NCBI RefSeq assembly: GCF_020055635.1
Contig: NZ_JAIPUT010000031.1
Span: 1 to 48,848 of the forward strand
Source of the DNA: Marivita sp.
GTDB taxonomy: Bacteria > Pseudomonadota > Alphaproteobacteria > Rhodobacterales > Rhodobacteraceae
Direction of reading: 5' to 3'
Length of the DNA stretch: 48,848 bases
The position numbers and the translations under genes were made by a program. A model generated the notes under the pieces. The model searched no databases and was not told where the DNA came from. It worked only from the letters and a program-made list of their open reading frames with translations. Shown here in pieces: positions 3,876 to 47,652 of this stretch; position 1 is the first letter of the stretch, and each line of letters begins with the position of its first letter.

Positions 3876-3910
3876 GTCGTTCTGTAGCCTCAAGGCGGCA
3901 GCCGTTTCAA
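3876..3910 (-). promoter_or_regulatory. Promoter of TSUP copy A, predicted leaderless start
   Basis: On the minus strand, TTGAAA (3910-3905), 18 bases, then TACAGA (3886-3881), then only five bases before the ATG at 3875. Transcription starting 6-8 bases after the -10 box would begin at the start codon itself, consistent with the weak or absent ribosome-binding site. The promoter of copy B has identical geometry, which supports both calls. Confidence 0.5.
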
Positions 3911-4048
3911 GCGTGGATGGATGGCGCGCTGCGACCGTCGAGCAGGGTGTCGGATACCGGGCACAGTGGCGATGGGGCCGGGTCGGAATGCGGGACGGAT
4001 TTGCGTCCGTCCAGGGCCACGGGGCCGTCATCTGCGTCCGCGCCTGCA

Positions 4049-5060: not shown

Positions 5061-5082
5061 GATGAGGCGTCGACGCCTCATC
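5061..5082. repeat. Perfect 22-bp palindrome downstream of the importer operon
   Basis: GATGAGGCGTC followed directly by its exact complement GACGCCTCATC, with the axis in GTCGAC. It lies two bases from a separate hairpin (5085-5102), in the non-coding gap after the last gene of the nucleoside importer operon. It probably contributes to 3'-end formation, but it has no T-run. Confidence 0.6.
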
Positions 5083-13610: not shown

Positions 13611-13678
13611 GGCGACCTCCTTGTTTTGGCGCGCAGGTTATGTGCGGGGCCGGTGAAGGTCCAGAGCGCGCGCGCGGG

Positions 13679-13770
13679 AAGGTGCTTCGAAGCACCTTGG
13701 GGCAAGCATCTTCGAAGATGCTTTCTCCGCGATTTCGAAATCGCGGCCTCAAGCCTTTTCGAAAAGGCTT
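13679..13770. repeat. Array of four perfect 20-bp palindromes centred on TTCGAA (array 1)
   Basis: Four exact palindromes at 13679-13698 (arm AAGGTGC), 13704-13723 (arm AAGCATC), 13727-13746 (arm CCGCGATT) and 13751-13770 (arm AAGCCTTT), spaced by 5, 3 and 4 bases. Each is 20 bp and symmetric about TTCGAA, yet the arms differ from unit to unit. The array begins 22 bases after the stop codon of the VOC gene and ends 68 bases before the aminotransferase start, both on the minus strand. Array 2 (47429-47520) has the same design. Each unit could form a hairpin in RNA or bind a symmetric protein; there is no T-run. Confidence 0.95.
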
Positions 13771-13792
13771 GGCATGCGTCGAGGTCGCGCTG

Positions 13793-14275
13793 TCAGTCCA
13801 GTTCCTGCAACAGCGCCTCGAGGTCTAGCGGGTGGTTGCCCATGTCCATCTGGCCGTTGGCGTCGCGTGGCCATTCGGCCTCGGGACGGTCGCGGTAGAT
13901 CTCGATCCCGTTGCCATCCGGGTCGCTGAAATAGATCGCCTCGCTTACACCATGATCCGCTGCACCTTCGATCTCGACACCGGCGTCCAGCACGGACTTG
14001 AACGCCTGCGCCAAGGCGGCGCGGTCCGGGTAGAGAAACGCCACGTGAAACAGCCCCGCGCTGCGCTGCGCGGCAGGTGGGCCACCCTTGCTGAACCAGG
14101 TGTTCAGCCCGATGTGGTGGTGATACCCGCCCGCCGACAGGAACGCGGCCTGGTCGCCGTAGTGCTGTGTCACGTCTAGCCCCATCACATCGCGGTAGAA
14201 CGCGATGGAGCGGTCGAGATCGGAAACCTTGAGGTGGACATGTCCGATGGTCATGCCGGGATGTGCCTTGGTCAT
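13793..14275 (-). CDS. VOC family (glyoxalase/extradiol dioxygenase fold) protein
   Basis: A single-module vicinal-oxygen-chelate protein of 160 residues. GHVHLKVSDLDRSIAFYRDVMGLDV opens the first beta-alpha-beta unit; FHVAFLYPDRAALAQA and IYFSDPDGNGIEIYRDRP form the second. Candidate metal ligands are the His of GHVHLKV, a His in the YHHHIGLN stretch or in FHVAFL, and the Glu of GIEIYRD. Resemblance to catechol-2,3-dioxygenase-like CatE/YfiE is stronger than to glyoxalase I. The substrate is unknown. The start ATG 14275 has GGAAAG upstream. The gene stands alone between trpS and the palindrome array. Confidence 0.85.
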   Translation of the reverse strand: MTKAHPGMTIGHVHLKVSDLDRSIAFYRDVMGLDVTQHYGDQAAFLSAGGYHHHIGLNTWFSKGGPPAAQRSAGLFHVAFLYPDRAALAQAFKSVLDAGVEIEGAADHGVSEAIYFSDPDGNGIEIYRDRPEAEWPRDANGQMDMGNHPLDLEALLQELD

Positions 14276-33903: not shown

Positions 33904-33947
33904 GACATTCCGTCAACGGAATGTCGCAAACGCATGGATGCGTTTGC
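33904..33947. terminator. Twin hairpins between convergent peptidase and arsR genes
   Basis: Hairpin 1 is GACATTCCG-TCAA-CGGAATGTC (33904-33925), a nine-pair stem of the GTCA-loop family. Hairpin 2, directly adjacent, is GCAAACGCAT-GG-ATGCGTTTGC (33926-33947), a ten-pair stem. They fill almost the whole 52-base gap and can form on either strand, so they probably serve as a shared transcription boundary. No T-run is present. Confidence 0.7.
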
Positions 33948-46839: not shown

Positions 46840-47424
46840 ATGTACAGACTGGTGGGAAATCGGGCGACGCGGGCATTTCGACCCTTGTGGATGCTGGAAG
46901 AACTGGGTGTGCCCTACGAGCATGTGCCCGCCGCGCCGCGCTCCGAAGAGGTGCGCGCGCTCAGCGCGTCCGGCAAGGTGCCGGTGCTGGTGGACGGAGA
47001 GGATGTGATTTCCGATTCGACAGCGATCCTGACCTATCTCGCGGACAAGCATGGGGCCTTCACGCGGCCTGCGGGAACGGTGACCCGCGCGCGGCAGGAC
47101 GCTTGGACATTCCGCGTGCTGGACGAGGTGGATGCGCTCCTGTGGACCGCGGCGCGGCACAGCTTCATCCTATCGGAAGACCAGCGCGTGCCTGCGGTGA
47201 AGGACAGTCTCAAGACCGAGTTCGCGCGGAACCTTGACCGGATCGCGGCGGACCTGTCGTCGGATTGCCTTGCGGGCGATGACCTGACGGTGCCGGATTT
47301 CCTGCTGGCGCATTGCCTGGGCTGGGCGCGGAACGCGGGCTTCCCGGATGCGCCAGAGGTGCTGGTGGAGTATCTGCGGCGGTTGCGGACCCGTCCTGCC
47401 TTTGAGCGCGCGGCGGCGCTGTGA
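46840..47424 (+). CDS. Glutathione S-transferase family protein
   Basis: A protein of 194 residues. The thioredoxin-like N-terminal domain shows YRLVGNRATRAFRPLWMLEELGVPYEHVP, then SGKVPVLVDGEDVISDSTAILTYLADKHG with the cis-Pro and DS glutathione-binding motif. The C-terminal helical domain has DDLTVPDFLLAHCLGWARNAGFP, with TVPDF at the N-capping box. The start chosen is ATG 46840 after a G-rich ribosome site. The substrate is unknown. It is followed five bases later by palindrome array 2, and then by formate dehydrogenase. Confidence 0.9.
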   Translation: MYRLVGNRATRAFRPLWMLEELGVPYEHVPAAPRSEEVRALSASGKVPVLVDGEDVISDSTAILTYLADKHGAFTRPAGTVTRARQDAWTFRVLDEVDALLWTAARHSFILSEDQRVPAVKDSLKTEFARNLDRIAADLSSDCLAGDDLTVPDFLLAHCLGWARNAGFPDAPEVLVEYLRRLRTRPAFERAAAL

Positions 47425-47428
47425 GCCG

Positions 47429-47520
47429 AAGGGCTTTCGAAAGCCCTTTCTGACGCGGTTTCGAAACCGCGTGAAAAAGCGCGTTCGAACGCGCTTGCAC
47501 AAGCCATTTCGAAATGGCTT
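47429..47520. repeat. Array of four perfect 20-bp palindromes centred on TTCGAA (array 2)
   Basis: Exact palindromes at 47429-47448 (arm AAGGGCT), 47453-47472 (arm ACGCGGT), 47477-47496 (arm AAGCGCG) and 47501-47520 (arm AAGCCAT), each separated by four bases, giving a strict 24-base period. All are symmetric about TTCGAA. The first begins four bases after the glutathione transferase stop. Relative to the upstream gene the order (AAG unit, CGCG unit, AAG unit, AAG unit) equals that of array 1. The following 132 bases up to formate dehydrogenase hold no gene that I can support. Confidence 0.95.
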
Positions 47521-47652
47521 GCACCGCCCCTGTCGGAGAGAATTGTTCGCATCGGAAACGGCACAGCCGCAAATCCGCGCCAAACTGTCGGGATTGTTGA
47601 TCCAAGCAACCCCCGGAATGCGGTTAGAGTGACCGCGACACAGGAGACCGCG

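Follow-up and report, generated by a model that had tools for sequence, protein, structure and literature searches.

The DNA analysed here (the window, 48,848 nucleotides from Marivita sp.) contains two arrays of four palindromic hairpins, and these belong to a dispersed set of about 40 copies in the genome, placed just after genes. Comparison of sequences identifies the copies as one family, with a recurring architecture and hairpin order and a place after stop codons, in which the two arms of a hairpin change in pairs between orthologues. On the basis of these observations, we hypothesise that the arrays are a REP-like dispersed element of Rhodobacteraceae, acting as a direction-independent hairpin barrier at gene 3' ends; we give this reading a probability of about 0.5.

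Table 1. Positions of the hairpins of both arrays, the genes upstream of them and a further hairpin pair in the window.
Feature	Position	Strand	Remarks
Array 2, hairpin 1	47429..47448	.	AAGGGCTT, loop TCGA; perfect palindrome; fits the unit 1 type of oriented arrays
Array 2, hairpin 2	47453..47472	.	CG type, ACGCGGTT; perfect palindrome
Array 2, hairpin 3	47477..47496	.	AAGCGCGT; perfect palindrome
Array 2, hairpin 4	47500..47521	.	22 bp, AAGCCATT/AATGGCTT; perfect palindrome
Array 1, hairpin 1 (canonical order)	13750..13771	.	AAGCCTTT; arms identical in orthologue G394
Array 1, hairpin 2	13727..13746	.	CG type, CCGCGATT; arms identical in G394
Array 1, hairpin 3	13704..13723	.	AAGCATCT; in G394 arms same, loop changed
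Array 1, hairpin 4	13679..13698	.	AAGGTGCT; arms identical in G394
Glutathione S-transferase-like gene upstream of array 2	46840..47424	+	Pfam GST_N_3 1.1e-13
VOC/glyoxalase-family gene upstream of array 1	13793..14275	-	Pfam Glyoxalase 9.6e-19
Possible two-hairpin cousin, other cores	33905..33946	.	between two convergent ORF ends, centres 22 apart

A palindrome scan of the window finds array 2 to be four perfect palindromes (47429-47521) with centre spacings of 24, 24 and 24, which bears out the sequence-only reading of a second four-palindrome run with an exact 24-base period after the glutathione S-transferase (GST) gene. The same reading gave the two arrays a shared design. This holds for the four palindromes and for the order of the hairpins, which along the upstream gene is A-type, CG-type, A-type, A-type in both, but not for the period, since the centres of array 1 are spaced by 25, 23 and 24 and not by exactly 24. 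All eight 5' arms are different, as had been noted. The window contains 10 perfect palindromes of at least 18 bp, compared to 0.36 expected from base composition, and 8 of them are in the two arrays. The hexamer TTCGAA occurs 21 times, against a mean of 11.9 in shuffled sequence (1 of 100 shuffles as high). RNA folding gives four hairpins for both arrays, with z of -4.9 and -4.2. In the window, no match to an Rfam family attains the gathering score, and an Rfam search of four array loci gave a single match, under the gathering score (30.5 of 67 bits, E 0.043). Elsewhere in the window there is a lone 22-bp perfect palindrome, GATGAGGCGTCGACGCCTCATC (5061-5082). The two hairpins at 33905-33946 are also perfect, with TGAGCGGCGG before them and CGCTCA after, and are perhaps a cousin with unrelated arms.

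The GST-like gene, whose start was chosen as the ATG at 46840 by reading the sequence, has a stop codon ending at 47424, and the first unit of array 2 begins 4 nt downstream. The 20-bp units of array 1 end 22 nt from the stop codon of the VOC gene, in line with the statement that both arrays start within about 22 bases of a stop codon. A detoxification regulon was considered but is not supported: of 56 upstream genes listed, 20 were scanned, and the only GST or VOC genes among these are the two in the window, and the link to glutathione and VOC genes, which had been remarked on as possibly accidental, does look like chance. Between array 1 and the next minus-strand gene (13611-13672), a promoter-like TGGACC-17-TAACCT was read by eye; it is largely retained in orthologues without the array.

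The picture of two loci has to be replaced, since the window's genome (G000; 4.94 Mb, 192 contigs) has about 40. The pattern TTCGAA-N14-24-TTCGAA occurs in it 63 times, a few of these matches not being arrays, compared to once for the reversed control pattern. The stretches fetched from it contain 41 clusters of two to five perfect hairpins, of which 39 are of array type and two have quite different cores. A covariance model, R1, was built from seven G000 arrays; its alignment holds 7 of the 9 four-unit arrays then known, leaving out one that was misaligned by MAFFT and one with another order. R1 gives 83 matches in G000 at E<=10, both strands counted, and 78 at E<=0.001.

All 17 Marivita genomes, including that of the window, match R1 at E<=0.001. 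At a threshold of 1e-8, R1 has matches in 28 of 394 genomes sampled from the family (27 of 393 genera). Among 142 genomes of a sample of the class the model matches the window's own alone, at least one of the other 141 being in the same family. In both scans the filters were strict and only a few candidates were scored for each genome, and the lack of a match is therefore no proof of absence. Most arrays outside G000 were fetched using patterns that require TTCGAA. The pattern scan of named records, which also required AAG and CTT ends and linkers of 3-5 nt, found at least 111 stretches, and the 80 matches listed are in Rhodobacteraceae or in metagenome bins labelled near them, with one exception. 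The genera among the matches listed are Marivita, Nioella, Tropicibacter, Roseovarius, Histidinibacterium, Shimia, Ruegeria and others. The exception is a two-hairpin array on a contig labelled Enemella evansiae (L204, about 3890-3935), which would be due to contamination or transfer. One genome (G035) has only 2 spaced TTCGAA pairs but at least 10 array-model matches; another (G191) has 45 such pairs yet no array-model match at 1e-6, and contains either another repeat or an array type that the model misses. A blastn search with array 2, whose short palindromes make a weak probe, gave no match in 72,556 plasmid records.

In its canonical form the element spans about 98 bp and has four hairpins in a recurring order of types, each with an 8-bp stem and a 4-nt loop that is mostly TCGA, separated by linkers mostly of 3-5 nt. 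Several of the arrays first seen as pairs are four-unit arrays in which the other loops are TCCA, TGCA, TGGA or TGAA, and the unit is therefore an 8-bp stem with a 4-nt loop that need not be palindromic. Among 171 arrays distinct by sequence (orthologues included), 78 have four units, 64 two, 23 three and 6 five, and the TTCGAA core, which is symmetric on both strands, is present in 438 of their units. Array detection needs at least two perfect stems; this inflates the share of perfect stems, but should not affect the ratio of G-T to A-C.

The position of the CG-type hairpin was used to orient 59 four-unit arrays, so that unit 2 is of CG type by construction. The preferred A-type arms in Marivita and the named genomes are AAGGCC-like in unit 1, AAGCGC-like in unit 3 and AAGSCG-like in unit 4. 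The second and third hairpins of array 2 carry the commonest arms of their positions in G000, namely ACGCGGTT (7 of 18) and AAGCGCGT (9 of 18). Units at the same position differ at 2.07 of 8 bases and units at different positions at 2.69, and in a test confined to A-type hairpins none of 200 within-array permutations reaches this. The unit order proposed from the two window arrays thus stands as far as positions are non-random, but its direction along the gene is not fixed: codirectional four-unit arrays read ACAA in 16 cases and AACA in 9. Similarly, the arms do differ, as proposed, but not freely, having preferred types by position and, in three other genomes discussed below, by lineage.

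The five or six bases just outside the arrays are G-rich at the 5' side and C-rich at the 3' side, with G making up about half to four fifths per position in the majority of positions. This is found at stop-codon and start-codon sides alike, and these bases therefore look like part of the element. Pairing between the two ends is possible. A closing helix between the two flanks was examined and rejected, as pairing array by array equals that of shuffled pairs, with no covariation. Two five-hairpin arrays on different contigs (L052:2454 and L053:2513) share four hairpins and part of the flank and have an end hairpin that is wholly different in both arms, a duplication with one whole hairpin exchanged.

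Genes around the arrays were called using our own codon-usage script. Of the 171 distinct arrays, 65 are in convergent and 84 in codirectional gaps, with 4 in divergent gaps, 4 overlapping a called gene and 14 at a contig edge; gaps of 60-400 nt at the same loci, array gaps included, number 373 codirectional, 137 divergent and 115 convergent. The median distance from array to stop codon is 10 nt (214 ends). These figures support, across the whole set, the link to stop codons that had been claimed. Within Marivita, 5 and 6 nt are the most frequent distances, with 19 each of 132 ends (orthologues counted). The distance from stop codon to first hairpin has apparent modes at 0-1, 5-6 and 10-11 nt (duplicates included), a spacing near half a helical turn.

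In the seven G000 arrays all 217 stem cells pair, one of them as G-U, and 17 of 31 stem pairs have changed on both sides, which none of 500 shuffles equals. A stronger test is provided by orthologous Marivita loci, which were identified by both flanks and form 22 clusters with a flank identity of about 78-92%. Paired changes were counted in 20 of these, leaving out two with whole-unit turnover, and also 16 gapped and 3 replaced units. Out of 1232 stem pairs, 1156 are unchanged, 45 have Watson-Crick changes on both sides, and 31 are broken (5 G-T, 5 A-C and 21 other), whereas about 1 paired and 118 single-sided would be expected if bases changed independently at the same rate. When each locus, position and new state is counted once, there are 30 paired and 29 broken, with paired change in 16 of the 20 clusters. 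Base change amounts to 5.0% in stems, 11% in loops, 45% in linkers and 23% in flanks; the linkers are nearly randomised.

Both window arrays illustrate this. Hairpin 4 of array 2, AAGCCATT/AATGGCTT here, is AAGCCCTT/AAGGGCTT in G397, G398 and G399, a paired A-T to C-G difference, and hairpin 1 of array 1 has a paired T-A to A-T change in G397; in G394, array 1 has kept all its arms with one loop changed. From one species to another, a change in one arm of a hairpin thus tends to be accompanied by a change in the other, so that it is pairing itself that is being preserved. This supports the proposal of a shared architecture whose arms have diverged under a pairing constraint. Unpaired substitutions in orthologues, which had been named as counting against that proposal, do occur, as do hairpin deletions, but they are far fewer than chance predicts. 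A richness of paired changes in transversions was considered as a sign of template switching and discarded, the flanks and linkers having a similar transition/transversion ratio.

A search with the VOC protein gives 10 close orthologues, the window's own included. Read by eye, the array is whole in G000 and G394 and is reduced to hairpins 1 and 4, some of them decayed, in G395, G397, G404 and G408, in agreement with the prediction of an inner deletion. No array was seen at the VOC locus of G396 and G398, which have the closest VOC proteins, and it is therefore dispensable there. In G403 and G405 the array's place holds a remnant or a different inverted repeat (also read by eye). At the GST locus there are four hairpins in G000, G397, G398, G400 and G403, of which G397, G400 and G403 have broken stems. 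Four are present also in G399, which was identified by its flanks and has no match in the GST protein search; in the other orthologues remnants or nothing were seen. Orthologues with unpaired change or deletion thus mark the element as dispensable at a given locus. The pattern of presence and absence at the two loci within Marivita looks like loss of old copies rather than new insertion. The GST orthologue of G404 (L119) contains a hybrid hairpin resembling hairpins 2 and 3 fused at their common TTCGAA core, which suggests a deletion between cores.

Some genomes have arms of their own. In Tropicibacter alexandrii (G330) unit 2 is mostly ACGCAAAT or ACGCGTCT, and in the 15 arrays of G312 that were examined hairpins 1, 3 and 4 nearly always have GTCGAC cores; the arrays of both genomes are the best model matches there. 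The seven arrays of G035 have an identical hairpin 1 in six cases and an identical hairpin 2 in all seven, and the loop TCGA always in hairpins 1 and 4 and never in 2 and 3. The mean number of arm differences per 32 nt within a genome is 4.6 in G330 (21 arrays), 3.4 in G312 (13) and 3.4 in G035 (7), compared to 6.9-11.6 between genomes. The pattern fails for G000 (16 arrays), where it is 8.4 within the genome, no less than the 7.6 to G035. Linkers differ even between copies with identical arms. In G330, G312 and G035 there has been either a recent spread of copies whose linkers are free, or a recogniser that keeps the arms. A bolder and rather doubtful suggestion is that the four hairpins form a barcode, with lineage-specific arm sets, that is read hairpin by hairpin by a trans-acting factor, which would make the arrays a new class of repeat. 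In that case the copies of a genome would change together as the specificity of the factor shifts, and arm pairs, loop and order would be a genome-wide co-evolving recognition code at gene 3' ends. A comparison of 265 arrays gives, with Marivita-Marivita pairs set aside, 148 pairs that have a neighbour in common (homologous and in the same role) and 32 that have both in common, although some pairs are one genome under two labels and arrays are partly counted twice. At one Marivita locus (L052), arrays with wholly different arms are found also in Mameliella (L174) and in G346 (L297).

As a barrier at gene 3' ends, the element would stall or end transcription, and/or block 3' exonucleases. Most units are identical to their reverse complement. 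Transcripts of either direction would therefore fold into the same hairpins, and a single element could act for the two genes of a convergent pair. At 5-6 nt past the stop codon, a first hairpin falls in the footprint of the terminating ribosome, and for this reason the redundancy given by several hairpins in a row would be useful, with the following hairpins doing the work. Copies would spread within lineages by some agent, and would later be lost through deletion of inner hairpins and decay. Several results weigh against the barrier: there is no U-tract and no strand-specific wobble, no array was seen at the VOC locus of G396 and G398, broken pairs nearly equal paired ones when distinct states are counted, and the flanks pair no better than shuffled ones. 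Ordinary intrinsic (rho-independent) terminators would likewise place stable, GC-rich hairpins immediately downstream of stop codons in convergent and codirectional gaps, and the different inverted repeat read by eye at the same place in the VOC orthologues of G403 and G405 would fit such an explanation. However, T makes up 13% of the 10 nt after the array and at least five T are present in only 4 of 198 ends, and with no U-tract the array is not a standard intrinsic terminator. Furthermore, only about 40 gene ends in the window's genome have an array, 28 of the 394 family genomes match the model, and terminators have no need of position-specific unit types, all of which makes this explanation very improbable.

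The hairpin might alternatively act as DNA, as a single-stranded or cruciform substrate of a transposase, nuclease or chromosome protein, with gene 3' ends being where insertions are tolerated; single-stranded REPs are the substrate of TnpA-REP. On the transcribed strand of codirectional arrays there are 9 G-T, 6 A-C and 35 other mismatches in 3544 stem pairs, and in convergent arrays 6, 7 and 15 in 2960. G-T is therefore hardly commoner than A-C and there is no strand-specific wobble, whereas a function in RNA only, from one strand, should tolerate G-U; the counts fit a DNA hairpin, or an element for which folding is needed from either strand. A DNA hairpin would also suit the symmetry of the TTCGAA core on both strands, the arms shared more within than between genomes in three genomes, the inverted G-rich and C-rich ends, and a unit order not fixed to gene direction. 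Against this, both window loci in Marivita look old and lost, not newly filled, and no transposase was identified, Y1_Tnp being present in 4 of the 17 Marivita genomes and arrays in all 17. In addition, the loops of orthologues change without symmetry, and a double-stranded dyad centre is therefore not needed. We regard action as DNA as possible though somewhat unlikely. It is less probable still that the arrays have no function, and that template-switch (quasipalindrome) mutation in replication keeps the arms complementary by copying one into the other. Such mutation has been proposed as a source of perfect hairpin stems, which it would also maintain, and of loop inversions (PMC8794818), and would account for paired changes far above the prediction of independence and for the reverse-complementary loops TTGA and TCAA at one orthologous hairpin (cluster 1). 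It leaves unexplained why the arrays lie at stop codons, why their unit types recur in order at a given spacing, why the loop is conserved, and why stems change four to five times less than flanks, and we consider it unlikely.

For REP-like repeats, which have been known for a long time, there is no agreed function. The arrays give dozens of copies per genome together with orthologues in several species. Their paired arm changes separate selection on pairing from selection on sequence. The question of RNA or DNA becomes testable in this family, using counts of G-U and A-C on the transcribed strand, and copies that are intact, reduced to two hairpins or lost form natural series at a single locus. 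A search of the open literature, with subscription journals outside its scope, found among the papers listed none that describes this repeat in its title or the start of its abstract, and the repeat may be in print. Rhodobacter, Marivita and Roseovarius do not occur in the main text of RepRanger (PMC12306157).

REP elements are short extragenic palindromes that are present in many copies, clustered, and mainly between convergent or codirectional genes (PMC3733652, PMC8266576). The arrays resemble REP elements and BIMEs in being multi-copy and extragenic, with the same placement at gene ends (149 of the 171 distinct arrays are in convergent or codirectional gaps). Unlike the REPs and BIMEs associated with RAYT/TnpA-REP (GTAG REPs), they have four ordered hairpin types rather than pairs of REP and inverted REP, and perfect stems with compensated arms. 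Nor is there a consistent GTAG tag, which is found at 23 of 530 array ends and 10 of 1688 unit ends; the excess over random 12-mers (6 of 530) is perhaps due to TAG stop codons there, and some arrays are counted twice among the 530 ends. A RAYT as the spreader is not supported by the Y1_Tnp counts given above (G000 is one of the four genomes), and two loci of roughly 3.3 kb around the Y1 genes of G000 contain no array. Close to the Y1 transposase genes of G000 (L276, around 2823) there is one CTACCGGC...GCCGGTAG hairpin with GTAG at its end, which has the look of an ordinary REP.

CGTC-tagged REPs, including Rickettsia palindromic elements, are reported not to flank tyrosine transposase genes, and REP-rich genomes have the same gene-end distribution; frequent G-T stem pairs were taken as a sign of function in RNA (PMC3733652). 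The arrays are like them in having no consistent tyrosine transposase and a similar gene-end distribution, and unlike them in that G-T stem pairs are rare. The CGTC tag is at 9 of the same 530 array ends, rarer than in random 12-mers of the same loci (37 of 530). As both tags and the transposase link fail, the array is best described as a REP-like variant, and not as a REP. In the class of tandem or bidirectional hairpin terminators without a U-tail, the stop codon is directly followed by several stable hairpins that can be used from both sides. The arrays share these features with that class, and differ from it in their ordered hairpin types and genome-specific arm types. HRC-8-4 and uORFC-8-2 are structured motifs found by comparative genomics in Rhodobacterales, the same bacterial order as the arrays; unlike the arrays, they have mainly one gene context each (cco operons and cysS), and include U-runs (PMC8632094).
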